A stretch of 10,697 bases of DNA. It comes from an uncultured Enterorhabdus sp. (GTDB taxonomy: Bacteria; Actinomycetota; Coriobacteriia; Coriobacteriales; Eggerthellaceae). How positions within the stretch are numbered: position 1 is the stretch's first letter; each line of letters opens with the position of its first letter. The notes under the pieces were generated by a model. That model did not search any database. It worked only from the letters and a program-made list of their open reading frames with translations, and was not told the DNA's origin. This document shows positions 222 to 7,197 of this stretch, in pieces. Where the stretch lies: assembly GCA_947645965.1 (NCBI GenBank), contig CANSES010000035.1, positions 1 to 10,697 on the forward strand, in the 5' to 3' direction. A program made the translations under genes and the position numbers.

Positions 222-1559
<1,338 letters not shown>

Positions 1560-1794
1560 GATTCGTGCCCTTTCGCTTGTTCTGCTTGACTTCGTGCCCG
1601 GGTCTGCGGAACGCGGAGGCGGCTTGACGCGAACAGGGCAAGCCCTTGCGGGCGCCCCAGAAGCTTCGGCGGGATGCTGCTGCGTACCACGGCTTTTCAT
1701 CGAGGGCGGGCGCCGGGCGGCGCCTGCGGGCCCCGCCTTCACGCGAAGGCGAGTGGGGAAGGGAGAAAAGCGGCCCTTGGGAGAATGCGGACGA
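1560..1794 (-). promoter_or_regulatory. argG leader RNA, candidate attenuator
   Basis: 235 untranslated bases lie between the arginine-rich leader frame and argG. Read on the minus strand they begin with a hairpin that overlaps the leader stop codon (arms 1800-1808 and 1786-1795, one bulged base, loop of four). This is followed by a pyrimidine-rich, C-rich stretch (about 1754-1783), then a 9-bp hairpin (1745-1753 with 1732-1740, loop of four, one G-U pair) and a GGCGCC hairpin (1719-1724 with 1709-1714). No hairpin is followed by a U-run, so a classical intrinsic attenuator is not evident. C-rich, structure-poor RNA straight after the leader stop would suit Rho loading, so Rho-dependent attenuation, or control of access to the argG ribosome binding site, are the better guesses. 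The arms are seen; the regulatory role is inferred. Confidence 0.45.
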
Positions 1795-1923
1795 CTAACG
1801 TCGTCGCAGACGGGTCGTCACCTCGACGCGTCGGCGTCGGGTGACCGTGGAGAGAACGTCGGAGCGCACGGCAGCATCGCCAGCGAGGGCGATGTCGGTT
1901 GCTATGAGACCGGAGGTCTGCAC
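1795..1923 (-). CDS. Putative arginine leader peptide (42 aa) upstream of argG
   Basis: A 42-codon frame starts at a GTG (1923-1921) with GAAAGGA eight bases upstream, and ends at a TAG at 1797-1795. It contains nine arginines: R20, four in a row at 29-32, R38, and three in a row at 40-42 just before the stop. The arginine codons are CGC, CGA and CGT, with CGA used four times, a codon usually avoided in GC-rich genomes. Arrangement and position, 235 bases ahead of argG on the same strand, match ribosome-mediated attenuation leaders, in which scarcity of the end product stalls the ribosome on its own codons. The four-arginine run lies in the loop of a 6-bp stem (1840-1845 with 1817-1822), and the last three in a hairpin overlapping the stop codon. 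The frame is also part of a longer open frame reaching 2388, but that has no good start. Function is inferred; a chance arginine-rich frame in GC-rich DNA is the alternative. Confidence 0.6.
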   Translation of the reverse strand: MQTSGLIATDIALAGDAAVRSDVLSTVTRRRRVEVTTRLRRR

Positions 1924-1997
1924 GCCGTGGTTCCTTTCAGACGGTTCTTCCTGCGCGGCCAAACGATGACCGCGAAGCAGCTCATTGCTTGCAGGGG

Positions 1998-2652: not shown

Positions 2653-2672
2653 AGCCGAATACTTATTCGGCT
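2653..2672. other. Hairpin overlapping the stop codon of the Fe-S subunit gene
   Basis: AGCCGAAT at 2653-2660 pairs perfectly with 2665-2672 across a four-base loop, so the last codons and the TAA stop (2665-2663) of the upstream gene are inside the stem. No U-run follows. It may protect the mRNA 3' end; as a terminator it is doubtful. Confidence 0.4.
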
Positions 2673-3013
2673 ACCGTCAGCAATGCCCAGCGGGTCTTGC
2701 CGTCCATCTTCTTGACAAGCTCCTCAGCCTCGCCGTAGTACATGCACCACGCCTGGCAGTGCTGGACGCACATGGGCATCTTGCCCTCGGCGGTGCGGCT
2801 GGCGCACATGTCGCAGGCCTGGGTGATGACGGGCAGGTAGGTCCACTCCCACGTGCCCTCGAGGCCGGGGCGGTTGGCGTACTGGAACGGGCCAACCTCC
2901 TCCACCTTGATGCCGAACTCGCCCTTGGGCAGATCGAGCTCCTTCTTGCAGGCCACCTCACAAGAATGGCAGCCAGTGCAGTAGTCATAATTGACTAGGA
3001 TTCCCTTTGTCAT
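2663..3013 (-). CDS. Small dicluster 4Fe-4S ferredoxin-like electron-transfer subunit
   Basis: Predicted 116-residue cytosolic protein that should carry electrons to the molybdopterin enzyme encoded just upstream. It has nine cysteines: C12, C15, C18 and C22 in a CxxCxxCxxxC motif, and C67, C70, C82 and C86 in a CxxC-x11-CxxxC motif, plus C90. This is the ligand pattern for two [4Fe-4S] clusters. DmsB/PhsB-type partners usually have four clusters and about 200 residues, so this is a short, two-cluster version of the kind found next to Eggerthella catechol dehydroxylases. The ATG at 3013 is preferred over the open frame to 3061 because AAAGGAGA lies six bases upstream and because the translation then opens directly into the first cluster motif. 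The gene follows the Mo-subunit by 22 bases on the same strand, so the two are surely one operon. There is no signal peptide or membrane segment. The electron donor to this subunit is not in the window. Confidence 0.88.
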   Translation of the reverse strand: MTKGILVNYDYCTGCHSCEVACKKELDLPKGEFGIKVEEVGPFQYANRPGLEGTWEWTYLPVITQACDMCASRTAEGKMPMCVQHCQAWCMYYGEAEELVKKMDGKTRWALLTVAE

Positions 3014-3035
3014 TATCAGTCTCCTTTTCCCTGCG

Positions 3036-5555
3036 CTACTGCTGCATCTCGGCTTTGCCATCGGCCATGGCTTTCTTCAACGCCTCCCGGCCTTGCATGT
3101 TTGCATCCTCAACCTTTTGCTGAACAGCACGTTTAACCTCATCTTGAATGAAGTCCGTTTGCCCCTCACGCTCCTTCATGGATGCAATATCGCCTGCCCA
3201 GGCGCCAGGGACGTAGTCTCCGAATCCGCCTTCTCTCGTCACCACCTCGCCCGGCATCTGATCCCCTTCCTCGTATTTATAGATTCTCGCGAGGAAGCTC
3301 TTGATGTCCGAGCCGATGCCGCCCTGGCCTGTCTCAAAAATCTTCGTCATGTTATTAATATTGGAATCAAACACGCCGTAGAGGCTGGGCTCGGCGGCCT
3401 CCTCCTCCGGGAACCACCACGCATGCTCCATATGGATGGTGTTAGGCTTGATGCCCGGGAACAGGAAGGCCTTCTGGCGGCAGCGACCATGCGGACTCTC
3501 GATCCACACCCAATCGCCGTCCTCGATGCCATGAGCAGCGGCGGTCTGGGGATTGATGGTCACGAGCGGATAGGGATGGAACTCGCGCATAGTCTCCAGC
3601 TGACGGTGCTCGCTGTGGAAGAACTCGTAGGATCGGCCGCCGGACGTGGCGATGAGCGGGTACTCCTTGAGCAGATCCGGCGTGGAGACCGGAGAGTTCT
3701 TCGGCTCGATGTGGTACGGCATCGGGTCGACGCCCCAGTGGTTGTAGCCCCAGCTCCAGAACTCGAAGCGGCCGGTGGCGGTGTCGAAGCCCGGCTGGCC
3801 GTCGGGACGGCACATGCCCTTCTCGTACTTGTAGTACTCGCTGTTCCAAGGATCGTACTTGTAGCCGCCGCGGGCCTGCAGCTCCTCGAAGTCGCCCTCG
3901 TAAGACGTGCCGCCCTCGGCGTACTGGTCGCACAGGTACCAGGTGGAGAGCTCCTTGTCGTCCTTCCACGGCCAGTTCTCGGGCTTGAGGCGCTTGCCCA
4001 GGTCGAGGATGATATCCTCGTCGGACTTGGCCTCGTAGTAGCTCGTGCACTTGGAGATGGAGCGCGCCGGCGTCCACCAGGTGCGCACGGCGTTGCGCTC
4101 GCAGCTCATGGCCACGGGCAGCACGATGTCGGCGTGGGCCACGGCGGTGGGGGTCATGAACGGGTCGGCGACGACGATAAAGGGAATGTTGTTCATGGCG
4201 TTATAGGCACGTGGCGCATCCATGCTGGAGCAGGCGATAGGGTTGCCCGACTCAATCCAGAGCATCTGGATCTTGAAGGGCTCCTCAGCCTCAGAGGCGT
4301 GAATAAACGAGTCTGCGGACGCGCAGGCCACGATGTCTGACTCCTCGATGCCAGCCGAGGTAGTAAGCTTATGCTTATAGTTCTCACGCGGGATCTTGAA
4401 GTCGCCCAGGCCGTAGCGCTTCTCGATGTCAAAGGCGCACTTCATCAAAAGGTTGCCACCAGGCCTATCGATATTGCCGGTAACGCCCATAAGGTCCAAG
4501 GCTGCCGCCGACACGCCCAATGCAGAAAGCTGCTGCTCGAAAGCGAGGCCCCACTGGATGGAGGCGGACTCGGCGGTTGCGTAAATGCGCGCAGCCTTGC
4601 GGATATCTTCAGCAGGCACATCGCAGATCTCGGCCGCCCAGTCGGCGTCCTTGCCCTGCACCGACTCGACGAGCTGCTCGTAGCCGTAGCACCACTTGTC
4701 GATGAAGTCGTGGTCGACGAGGTCCTCGTTGATGATGGTGTTGAGCATGCCGATGCCAAGGGCGCCGTCGGTGCCGGGACGCACCTGCAGCCACACCTCG
4801 GCCTTGGCGCCGAGCCAGGTCAGGCGCGGGTCGATGGAGATGATCTTGGTGCCCATCTGCATGCACTCGACGATCCAGTGGCCCAGGAAGCCGTCAGCGT
4901 TGGACTTGAGCGGCTCGTTGCCCCACACCATGATGACGTCGGGGCGGCGGAAGGTGGGATCCGCATACCTCAGCTCATGCGTCTCGGACACGTCGATGAT
5001 GTTCATCTCGCCCATCTTTGCCGATGAGGCAATCATGCGGGGCAGGTAACATGCAAAGCCGGAGAAGCCGAAGTTGCTAACATTAGGCGTCTCAAGCGCA
5101 GTCGACGCGAAGAGAGGAAGCTGCCAGCCGATGTTACGGCCGGTGCCATGATCGAAGAGGATGGTGTGGGACCCGTAGTTCTCCTTGATGTAATTAACCT
5201 TCTCCACAATGATGTCGTAGGCCTCGTCCCAGCTGATGCGCTCCCACTTGTTCTCGCCGCGCTCGCCAGCGCGCTTGAGGGGCCACTTCAGGCGGTCGGG
5301 ATGGTTGACGGCCTCCACCATATCCAGGCAGCGCATGCACAGCTTGCCGCCGTTGAACGGGGCCAGCGGGTCGCCCTCGATGCGGGCGAGCTTGCCCTCC
5401 TTGTCCACAAAGAGCAGCACGCCGCAGCCGTTGTGGCAGCCCGGGGGCGACCAGTGGTTGGTACGGGTGACGGTGAAGTCACCCTCCTGCCAACGCCACT
5501 CGCCCTCGTGATAGGCCTTACGATCTACTGAGTCCAGATACTCTTGGTAATCCAT
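3036..5555 (-). CDS. Molybdopterin oxidoreductase, catechol-dehydroxylase-like
   Basis: Predicted 839-residue catalytic subunit of the DMSO reductase superfamily, binding bis-MGD molybdenum. Visible parts: N-terminal Fe-S region with C40, C44, C73 and C76; ISWDEAYDIIVEK at about 107-119; MGD-binding segments around VWGNEP (210-215) and IDPRLTWLGAKAEVW (241-255) with RPGTDGAL; ADIVLP and ESGNP motifs in the second half; and a C-terminal molydop-binding domain ending in a Lys/Gln/Glu-rich helical tail. C169 (in FACYLP after TPNV) is at the place where the Mo ligand usually lies, an inference. There is no Tat signal, so the enzyme should be cytosolic. The ATG at 5555 has AGAAAAGGAG upstream; the frame open to 5654 adds residues unlike the family. 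Absence of Tat, a two-cluster partner and a divergent LuxR-type gene resemble the cytosolic catechol dehydroxylases of Eggerthella and Gordonibacter; acetylene hydratase and transhydroxylases are more distant relatives. The substrate is unknown. Third-position GC is patchy (see findings). Confidence 0.88.
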   Translation of the reverse strand: MDYQEYLDSVDRKAYHEGEWRWQEGDFTVTRTNHWSPPGCHNGCGVLLFVDKEGKLARIEGDPLAPFNGGKLCMRCLDMVEAVNHPDRLKWPLKRAGERGENKWERISWDEAYDIIVEKVNYIKENYGSHTILFDHGTGRNIGWQLPLFASTALETPNVSNFGFSGFACYLPRMIASSAKMGEMNIIDVSETHELRYADPTFRRPDVIMVWGNEPLKSNADGFLGHWIVECMQMGTKIISIDPRLTWLGAKAEVWLQVRPGTDGALGIGMLNTIINEDLVDHDFIDKWCYGYEQLVESVQGKDADWAAEICDVPAEDIRKAARIYATAESASIQWGLAFEQQLSALGVSAAALDLMGVTGNIDRPGGNLLMKCAFDIEKRYGLGDFKIPRENYKHKLTTSAGIEESDIVACASADSFIHASEAEEPFKIQMLWIESGNPIACSSMDAPRAYNAMNNIPFIVVADPFMTPTAVAHADIVLPVAMSCERNAVRTWWTPARSISKCTSYYEAKSDEDIILDLGKRLKPENWPWKDDKELSTWYLCDQYAEGGTSYEGDFEELQARGGYKYDPWNSEYYKYEKGMCRPDGQPGFDTATGRFEFWSWGYNHWGVDPMPYHIEPKNSPVSTPDLLKEYPLIATSGGRSYEFFHSEHRQLETMREFHPYPLVTINPQTAAAHGIEDGDWVWIESPHGRCRQKAFLFPGIKPNTIHMEHAWWFPEEEAAEPSLYGVFDSNINNMTKIFETGQGGIGSDIKSFLARIYKYEEGDQMPGEVVTREGGFGDYVPGAWAGDIASMKEREGQTDFIQDEVKRAVQQKVEDANMQGREALKKAMADGKAEMQQ

Positions 5556-5600
5556 TCCTTCTCCTTTTCTGACAGGCGCACAAAGGACACGTAGGTATGG

Positions 5601-5613
5601 TGAAGTCACTTCA
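5601..5613. promoter_or_regulatory. 13-bp palindrome, candidate operator
   Basis: TGAAGTCACTTCA is palindromic around its central base, with 6-bp arms. It lies 46-58 bases upstream of the oxidoreductase start codon. A protein dimer bound here could block or aid transcription of that operon. The palindrome is certain; the binding protein is unknown. Confidence 0.4.
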
Positions 5614-5635
5614 AATGGAACAGCGATTCGAACCC

Positions 5636-5656
5636 CGATGCCAACCTCAGGCATCG
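5636..5656. other. Hairpin in the oxidoreductase leader
   Basis: CGATGCC (5636-5642) pairs perfectly with GGCATCG (5650-5656) across a seven-base loop. A competing pairing, AGCGAT (5622-5627) with ATCGCT (5653-5658), uses part of the same right arm, so two alternative folds are possible. It lies 80-100 bases before the start codon on the minus strand. Confidence 0.4.
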
Positions 5657-5789
5657 CTCTGCAGTGCTTCTAAAATAATCAAATTGTTATGATTGGTTTT
5701 GCCTAAAAGCTATCTTATTTGAGAATAAATTATGAGGCTGAATGGCGTATAGACACCAACGTTATGCCTGAACACAGACGTATTTTCGA

Positions 5790-5831
5790 ATCAAGCGAAT
5801 AATTACCGCTCTTGATATGTAGTAGATATCA
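5790..5831. promoter_or_regulatory. Overlapping dyads upstream of the LuxR-type gene
   Basis: ATCAAG (5790-5795) is mirrored by CTTGAT (5811-5816), and TGATAT (5813-5818) by ATATCA (5826-5831) with a seven-base spacer. The second dyad is centred at 5822, about 60 bases before the transcription start expected from the TATAAT at 5869. That is a usual place for an activator site, for instance for autoregulation by the LuxR-type product. Inference from position and symmetry only. Confidence 0.4.
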
Positions 5832-5868
5832 GCGAAAGATACTAAAAGTCTGCCCAGTCGCCCCATAC

Positions 5869-5874
5869 TATAAT
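5869..5874 (+). promoter_or_regulatory. -10 element of the LuxR-type gene
   Basis: TATAAT matches the sigma-70 consensus fully and would start transcription near 5881, about 34 bases before the start codon. At 16-18 bases upstream there is no recognisable TTGACA, which suggests dependence on an activator. Confidence 0.55.
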
Positions 5875-5914
5875 TACGAGAGCCGCTTATATGCAGCAAG
5901 GAAAAGGAGTCATC

Positions 5915-6337
5915 ATGGAGCCTGATGAATTATTGGCCTTGGAGGCATCGGCAAAGCTTTACCAAACCATTCCTGATTATCTTTTGGAAAAAAAGAAGAA
6001 ATCGAGCTTGGAGCTCGCATTGCTTGAGCTAATTGACGCCCTGGATGTTGTCGAATACAGGCGCTCTAAGGAGTCCTTTCTGCAGTCTATCCAATACGAA
6101 ATCCCCTATCACCGCAAACGCATGGTGCTGAAAATAGTGGAAAAATACGGCTTAACCACTCAGGAAGGTCACGTTCTGCGTTATCTCGCGAATGGGAGAG
6201 ATGTGCCTTACATCGCAGACAAGCTTGTTGTATCGACCAACACTGTTAAGACGCATAAGTATTCTATCTATCGGAAGCTAGGCATCCATTCAAGCCAGCA
6301 GCTTGAAGAGCTACTTTCCAGGAAAGACCTCGTCTAA
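5915..6337 (+). CDS. LuxR-type (GerE-fold) DNA-binding regulator, small
   Basis: Predicted 140-residue protein. The last half is a LuxR C-terminal helix-turn-helix, about residues 79-134: LTTQEGHVLRYLANGRDVPYIA, then the recognition helix in VSTNTVKTHKYSIYRKLGIHS. The first 78 residues are helical and charged, with a KKKK cluster near 26-29, and resemble no receiver, PAS or autoinducer domain I know. There is no membrane segment, unlike the large membrane-bound LuxR regulators common in Eggerthella. The ATG at 5915 is chosen over that at 5891 because AAAAGGAG lies just upstream of it. It is divergent from the dehydroxylase-like operon and is the likely regulator of that operon and perhaps itself; what it senses cannot be told. 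GC is roughly 45-50 percent by hand count, far below the arginine genes, which suggests acquisition from elsewhere. Confidence 0.85.
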   Translation: MEPDELLALEASAKLYQTIPDYLLEKKKKSSLELALLELIDALDVVEYRRSKESFLQSIQYEIPYHRKRMVLKIVEKYGLTTQEGHVLRYLANGRDVPYIADKLVVSTNTVKTHKYSIYRKLGIHSSQQLEELLSRKDLV

Positions 6338-6808: not shown

Positions 6809-6907
6809 GCTGAATGGGAGCAGCGGGCGCCTTCGCCGTTTCCCCCTGCGCATCGCGCTCATGCATGGGGTGCCGAGCGCGCCCGCATGCGACCCTGGCG
6901 TGTAAAG

Positions 6908-7069
6908 TGGCCAAAAATGACGACCTGACGACAGAATTTCGCGCCGGGGACGCGTCACCGAAGGCGGCGACACGCAAAAGCCCAGGTCGCGCTCTAGGCC
7001 TTAGGGGGATTCGCGTCGCGGGGCGTGCTTTCGTGCCCCGCTTTGTCGTCAGGTCGTCGTTTTTGGCCA
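6908..7069. repeat. 162-bp element bounded by 26-bp inverted repeats
   Basis: The left arm, 6908-6933 (beginning TGGCCAAAAATGACG), is the reverse complement of the right arm, 7044-7069, with one mismatch in 26. The 110-base interior is GC-rich and holds a 7-bp hairpin, GCGGGGC (7018-7024) with GCCCCGC (7035-7041), that abuts the right arm. There is no transposase and no credible gene inside; the frame that starts with the ATG in the right arm lacks a ribosome binding site. No clear target duplication is visible at the flanks. It fits a MITE-like or other dispersed intergenic repeat, and in RNA it would fold into a long stem in the 3' region of the argJBD transcript. Confidence 0.75.
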
Positions 7070-7197
7070 TTTTTGGGGCCGGCGGCTGCGCGGATGCGCA
7101 GGAAACGGGGGCAGGAGCGCAGGGGGGGGGTGGCGCAAGACGGGGAGCCCCACCCCCACGCCCGAGCCCCGCTTGGCAGCACCCTCCCCCCCATTGT

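Follow-up and report, generated by a model that had tools for sequence, protein, structure and literature searches.

An arginine-codon leader ORF conserved before argG in Eggerthellaceae: a probable ribosome-mediated attenuator with a likely link to the 3' end of argR

For bacterial arginine synthesis, control by ArgR is the textbook case, and attenuators that rely on amino-acid leader peptides are known for the trp, his, leu and ilv biosynthetic operons. Amino-acid leader-peptide attenuators have been described for Actinobacteria in a 2005 survey, which also states that it observed no conserved RNA structure before arginine operons in the Actinobacteria studied (PMC1262725). The nearest known cases are orf34-speF of Salmonella and rbfL of S. 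aureus. The orf34 leader harbors consecutive arginine codons, and ribosome pausing at low arginine refolds the mRNA, which is thereby kept stable and translated (PMC6386406). The rbfL leader senses arginine by means of rare arginine codons (PMC13009471).

The leader described here, which precedes argG, has consecutive arginine codons in a leader ORF, like orf34, and rare arginine codons, like rbfL. In contrast, orf34 serves a polyamine gene and not arginine synthesis, with Rho and RNase G taking part (PMC6386406), whereas rbfL has 8 codons and its stalled ribosome covers the next ribosome site, which lowers the expression of a biofilm regulator (PMC13009471). In Pseudomonas aeruginosa, carA also has a leader peptide before a gene that serves arginine synthesis, but its control by arginine is transcriptional, attenuation is possibly exerted by pyrimidines, and nothing on arginine codons is seen in the available part of the source (PMC4997734). 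The His leader attenuators of Firmicutes without HisR and T-box control are similar in being RNA attenuators present where a repressor is missing; they differ in the amino acid, histidine, and nothing in the part of the source at hand connects them with the 3' end of a repressor gene (PMC9413887). With amino-acid attenuators in general, the argG leader shares a short ORF with its ribosome site, a run of end-product codons, a pathway gene downstream and a predicted ribosome-dependent RNA pairing. It differs from them by its use of arginine, by the lack of a classical terminator in the window (the whole stretch of 10,697 nucleotides that was analysed) and by the coincidence of part of it with the 3' end of argR in relatives. 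Among the matches listed by a literature search that most subscription papers lie outside, there was no arginine leader before argG or in Eggerthellaceae.

The gene and its leader comprise the following features.

222..1559, minus strand: argG, argininosuccinate synthase (PF00764 and PF20979)
1568..1575, minus strand: argG ribosome binding site, CGAAAGGG (from the sequence)
1795..1923, minus strand: leader ORF, 42 codons, GTG start, ending in TRRRRVEVTTRLRRR and the stop (from translation; type conserved in 25 genomes)
1932..1938, minus strand: leader ribosome binding site, GAAAGGA (from the sequence)
1828..1839, minus strand: first arginine run, CGA CGC CGA CGC (from the sequence and codon counts)
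1798..1812, minus strand: second arginine run, RLRRR, as CGT CTG CGA CGA CGT, adjoining the stop (same ending on the ArgR of relatives)

The original prediction had called a 42-codon frame with a GTG start and a ribosome binding site, with eight arginines in its last 14 codons, and all of this is confirmed in the sequence, as are the 235 bases that separate the leader stop (ending at 1795) from the argG ATG (1559) on the same minus strand. The full translation of 1923..1795 is VQTSGLIATDIALAGDAAVRSDVLSTVTRRRRVEVTTRLRRR followed by the stop, and the C-terminal end is also written STVTRRRRVEVTTRLRRR. At least eight arginines in the 14 codons directly before a stop were found in 4 of 21306 stretches in the six frames of the window, the leader being one of the four, and the mean of the same count in 100 single-base shuffles of the window was 0.13. 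Arginine-richness alone is nevertheless weak evidence, since the window is GC-rich and its six frames hold three other such stretches. In these sequences, it is through its conservation and its codon choice that the leader frame stands above chance, with the covarying pairing of 13 leaders, described below, as a third mark.

Other genes of the pathway lie at a distance. Matches to PF00202, PF00696 and PF01960 elsewhere in the window are read as argD, argB and argJ, names that are interpretations, and a molybdopterin oxidoreductase and a 4Fe-4S protein separate them from argG. Between argD and the argG leader, positions 2663-6337 hold these two and a divergent LuxR-type regulator, the arginine cluster being broken up. 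Downstream of argD there is an inverted repeat of 30 bases, 93% complementary, with its arms 110 bases apart (6904-6933 and 7044-7073). Within 1400-2700, a simple consensus scan for promoters and terminators returned no promoter-like site and two terminator-like ones, where 1.0 was expected; the two precede the leader, and the scan found no terminator between leader and argG. The nearest named relative is Adlercreutzia faecimuris, whose ArgG is 94% identical, which fits the family assignment. G001, the genome closest to the window, has the same sequence over the stretch that begins 135 bases ahead of the leader stop end and runs to the argG start, and is for this reason no independent witness.

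Conservation was assessed in 138 genomes of the family (genomes, loci and genera are cited by G, L and g numbers), with an argG match in 125 and the upstream region read at 119 argG loci. An arginine leader of the window type was found at 25 of the 119, in 25 genomes and ten genera; the 25 were picked by arginine content and inspection, and a weaker RRR ORF before argG in G060 (L006) was left out. A. faecimuris, A. hattorii, A. mucosicola and A. caecimuris are the named records among or like the carriers. The check put forward with the original prediction, that frame, start and arginine run be kept in relatives, turned out in its favor, as frame, start and arginine runs are kept while the N-terminus diverges. 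Across the nine g5 genomes, a single synonymous change is all that differs in the codons for RRRR and LRRR, while the linker and N-terminus vary. By a lenient motif list, the start codon has an SD-like motif in 25 of 25 leaders. The locus carries these marks of a leader attenuator: by sequence, a short ORF that has a ribosome site and precedes the gene on the same strand; a CGA-biased run of end-product codons, eight arginines in 14; and regulatory codons that are kept while the rest of the peptide drifts.

A separate scan of the 119 loci for SD-led ORFs of 10-60 aa with at least three CGA codons matched 42 loci on the argG strand; on the opposite strand, over a longer stretch, it matched 7. 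Among the 42 are 23 counted leaders (all but L021 and L160), 10 loci of g47, one of G011 and eight with argR nearby, at which the scan mostly picked up the end of argR, entered at an inner start. The scan covered 15 loci of the ArgR-less genus g44 and showed no leader there, and likewise none in ArgR-less g46. In an ArgG tree of 48 rows, from which g36 and g47 were absent, one clade (98/97) unites 21 of 22 leader rows with two rows for which no leader was counted; L021 (g26) lies outside it, with an unresolved placement.

The codon choice of the leaders is markedly different from that of the gene they precede. Over the last 18 codons of each of the 25 leaders, CGA accounts for 89 of 173 arginine codons, vs 0 of 315 in argG at the same loci, and, with one leader per genus, for 35 of 64 vs 0 of 126 (Fisher 7e-21, codons being treated as independent). 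In six genes of the window it makes up 1 of 122. As the relatives are not independent, these Fisher values, like the permutation values below, overstate certainty.

ArgR, detected by PF01316 and PF02863, is present in 71 of the 138 genomes. No match to either domain turned up in G001 (97% complete) or, G176 excepted, in any of the 25 leader genomes; of the latter 24, 7 are less than 90% complete. Membership in an ArgR regulon, which presupposes an ArgR encoded in the genome, was found neither for G001 nor for the 24. Where ArgR is encoded directly before argG, it ends in LRRR at 40 of 45 loci. CGA makes up 106 of 150 arginine codons in the last six codons of those 40 argR genes vs 17 of 428 in the argR body, and 1 of 328 in the argG stretches of the 45 loci. 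Of 26 loci that have argR elsewhere, or no argG behind it in the stretch that was read, 25 were parsed, and the LRRR ending was found at 1 of these; CGA makes up 4 of 31 arginine codons in their argR tails and 31 of 285 in the bodies. In other families of the order, LRRR was found at none of 29 parsed ArgR loci (a 30th was unparsed), 20 of which adjoin argG. Being rare on ArgR encoded elsewhere and absent from those 29 loci, the ending is not needed by ArgR and does not result from the neighborhood alone; on these genomes, it is a feature of Eggerthellaceae.

In the place of the RLRRR ending with its stop, and of the RNA that follows, relatives have the 3' end of argR, from which the leader is probably descended in part. 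The g36 leaders, in whose genomes no ArgR was found, still resemble the ArgR tail (SPQAAVDAARATNRLRRR vs SPEAAVEVERAIDRLRRR; p 0.0005 and 0.001), and among the other 23 leaders such likeness outside RLRRR reached p <0.05 in L103 and L104 only. As a plain argR remnant by sequence, the leader is clear only in g36, and this description was rejected for the group. A strict replacement of ArgR by the leader was likewise rejected as a rule: the two coexist in G176 and in genus g47, and both are missing from g44, g46 and others. G176 (L117, L180) is the sole leader genome with ArgR, and has a free leader before its argG; the ArgG tree places this argG, whose branch is long, inside the leader clade, and three congeneric genomes have argR before argG. 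Leader and argG were perhaps acquired together by horizontal transfer.

Between leader and argG lies an RNA with several conserved elements.

1790..1805, minus strand: hairpin H0 around the stop codon, GACGAC-gtta-GTCGTC (seen in many relatives)
1759..1778, minus strand: hairpin H1, with GCTTTTC (1765-1771) in its loop (covariation in alignment A1)
1709..1724, minus strand: hairpin H2, GGCGCC-GCCC-GGCGCC (covariation in alignment A1)
1692..1698, minus strand: GAAAAGC, complement of the H1 loop, as a pseudoknot or kissing pair (kept in 20-21 of 21 sequences per pair, with one compensatory change)
1606..1614, minus strand: downstream strand of helix P4 (strong in relatives with argR, weak in the window type)
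1595..1604, minus strand: GACCCGGGCA, conserved just before argG, its GGGC complementing the H2 loop GCCC (from the alignment; pairing by inspection)

In alignment A1, which comprises 21 sequences, 91.7% of cells pair, and 14 pairs changed on both sides against a shuffled mean of 7.9, a number reached in 1 of 500 shuffles. The covariation score is 0.214 vs 0.133 in shuffles and at most 0.088 when slid, and the count of further pair types, 31 vs 29.2, is not above shuffles. P4 is a helix between a strand that follows GAAAAGC and one that precedes GACCCGGGCA; it covaries, its own pairs exceed all 500 permutations over 21 loci, and it is weak in g1. Stability is uninformative by itself, because the folding energy of the whole region has a z of -1.35 and 12 of 100 shuffles are equally stable. 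This structured RNA is found behind H0 in the ArgR-type relatives and in g1 (the window), g22 and g36, and R1, a model of it, matches 43 of the 138 genomes once each, always just before argG, 21 of the 43 having built the model and thus matching by construction. R1 was not found in g5, g16, g17, g30 or g34, its filters being apt to lose weak matches. Rfam covariance models gave no match at gathering score in the window, and below that score chance-level matches only, both in the window stretch and in L011, L020, L004 and L159; a T-box or other known riboswitch was rejected on this absence of a match at gathering score.

A compact hairpin lies over the stop in 36 of the 40 argR ends of the LRRR type. 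In several relatives H0 is followed by a U-run, like an intrinsic terminator, and L199, L022 and L198 look like plain intrinsic terminators. The H0 of the window has no clear U-run, and a GACGAC further upstream can pair equally well. Locus by locus, H0 gave p from 0.0 to >0.8 against shuffled 3' sides, mostly 0.02 to 0.2, and with values this modest it is not decisive singly.

A second pairing, P1, links the leader ORF itself to the RNA downstream.

1844..1850, minus strand: upstream arm of P1, CCACGGT, with 4 bases between it and the first arginine codon (partner strand 1687-1693; relatives show compensatory changes)
1687..1693, minus strand: downstream arm of P1, the 'switch strand', GCCGTGG (pairs with 1844-1850)

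P1 joins CCAYGGY-like bases just before the arginine codons to a GTGG-containing strand some 110-155 bases downstream. In an unguided choice of the best helix between leader and downstream region, it came out in 13 of the 25 leaders (9 of 9 in g5, one in g16, two in g22 and one in g1), with per-locus p of 0.005 to 0.15 in 12 of the 13 and of 0.935 in L040. Another helix scores best in the other 12, including L001 and L002 of the window type, in which P1 is short. Both sides changed together in the pairs CACCACGGCT/AGCTGTGGTG, GCCACGGCCT/AGGCCGTGGC, TCCACGGC/GCCGTGGA and CCACGACT/AGTCGTGG, and own partners beat permuted ones in 499 of 500 draws over 15 loci chosen for having the switch strand. 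In g1, g5, g16 and g22, 4 to 10 bases separate the end of the upstream arm from an arginine codon (in g22 a single arginine, no run). Given what is generally known of the ribosome footprint, this distance implies that the arm would lie under a ribosome whose A site holds that codon. In the ArgR-type relatives the partner of this downstream strand is a local one (H3) or the one in P4, which suggests that in the leader clade the competing arm has moved into the ORF. A second CCACGGC lies over the leader ribosome site (1924-1931) and could pair with the switch strand at 1693-1686; it is present in L001 and L002 and absent in L040.

From these sequence comparisons we consider it probable, with good confidence, that a translated arginine leader peptide controls argG by ribosome-mediated attenuation. 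The attenuation role put forward in the original prediction thus gains support from the rare-codon bias, the covarying leader pairing, the conserved RNA before argG and the lack of a detected ArgR. The ORF, its codon choice, the conserved RNA and, in relatives, the P1 pairing are read directly from aligned sequences, and from these we infer translation of the leader, stalling, the direction of control and its output. When arginyl-tRNA is plentiful, the ribosome would pass the CGA-rich codons, and the arm at 1850-1844 would be free to pair with the switch strand at 1693-1687, keeping argG low. When arginyl-tRNA is short, the ribosome would stall at the first arginine codons and cover the upstream arm of P1, and the switch strand would be available for another fold, with the result that argG is expressed. 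The output might be a terminator in the transcript, H0 or another, or access to the argG ribosome binding site. With the ribosome masked as if stalled at the first run, predicted access to that site goes up in L009, L112, L117, L107, L106 and L003, goes down in L114 and L104 and is unchanged in the window type. A hairpin that sequesters it is seen only in Adlercreutzia-type relatives, at p <=0.01 in 6 of 10 g5 and g16 leaders and in none of the 15 others. As for alternative folds tied to ribosome position, a competitor of P1 (H3, P4) is clear only in the ArgR-type relatives.

The same reasoning may extend to argR. Beside argG, the last codons of argR (RLRRR and the stop, CGA-rich) might themselves act as a leader peptide whose translation gauges arginyl-tRNA and, through the stop-codon hairpin and the RNA behind it, sets argG transcription or translation, the loss of argR in the Adlercreutzia clade having left this end as a free-standing leader. 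To this proposal, which is tentative, we give slightly less than an even chance.

Further leaders bear on these questions. In all five g1 and g22 genomes examined (L246, L242, L238, L232, L234), a second leader ORF precedes argC, with CGACGACG(T or C) near its end (VEFRNAFITAGAAAGPRLRRRS and the stop in G001) and, by eye, RRR near the stop, a GTG start and an SD-like CGAAAACGAGG or similar. None was seen on inspection of the other 21 of 26 argC loci, G003 and G119 being left out. Genus g47, which encodes ArgR elsewhere, has another type of leader before argG at 10 of 11 loci (L163-L166 and L213-L218), e.g. MTATAQQFSFRRQDRRTTLRCTRVFLAVHTR and the stop, with CGA at 38 of 75 arginine codons; in the argC and the g47 leaders alike, arginines come in CGA-rich pairs or triplets. 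A possible third is seen in G011. When 22 genomes were searched for leaders ending in RRR and a stop (pattern CGACGACGNTAR), only argG leaders and one argR end were leader-like among the 30 matches inspected, and the reversed control of the pattern matched about equally often in many genomes. By eye, a palindrome TTTGTGC..GCACAAA or a variant of it precedes argC at 5 of 8 argC loci of ArgR genomes (L236, L241, L239, L229, L244), and a degenerate form, TTTGTGCATGCGCTCAA, is seen in ArgR-less g5; the palindrome is possibly an operator.

Could the arginine codons be a by-product of a hairpin, with GACGACG retained because it forms the 5' arm of a terminator (H0) that came from argR, and with no sensing of arginine? 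The stop-codon hairpin common to most LRRR argR ends is typically GACGAC-gtta-GTCGTC and often has a U-run, the terminator-like hairpins of L199, L022 and L198 fit this origin, and L026 keeps the hairpin though its codons are no longer CGA (CGG CGC CGG). Yet the hairpin changes in g5 and g17 while the arginine codons stay, and the four LRRR argR ends without a compact hairpin (L023, L168, L197 and L200) all keep CGACGA, which common descent could explain. The upstream RRRR run, moreover, lies outside H0, and the argC and g47 leaders have CGA-rich arginine codons too. We regard a mere hairpin origin of the codons as unlikely.

Still less probable is that the RNA between ORF and argG, as an orphan riboswitch or a protein-binding element, is the real sensor and the leader secondary. 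Such an element would agree with an RNA that is complex and covarying, has complementary loops and no Rfam family, and is matched once per genome and always before argG; the absence of R1 matches in the strong-leader genera, for all that its filters can lose weak ones, argues against it, and it leaves the CGA bias and the argC leader unexplained. That the leader is a decaying remnant of argR without function we hold to be very improbable, as all 25 genomes have retained the arginine codons and a start with SD support in an otherwise diverging leader, and likeness to the ArgR tail outside RLRRR, though clear in g36, reaches p <0.05 in only two of the other leaders. A real, conserved arginine leader ORF that most likely works by ribosome-mediated attenuation, and that has an unusual likely origin in the 3' end of a repressor gene, is the reading we prefer.

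Beyond the original prediction, the analysis adds the link to argR, the second leader before argC and, downstream of the argG leader, a structured RNA without an Rfam match. If the end of argR did survive as a free leader after the loss of argR, an RNA attenuator would have been born from the gene of a protein repressor. The evolutionary path is visible in that the same rare codons are found on the end of argR where it is kept beside argG and on the free leader where it is lost, and it makes testable how an RNA switch can replace a regulatory protein. In the Eggerthellaceae, a family of gut bacteria, leader peptides probably make arginine genes respond to arginyl-tRNA.
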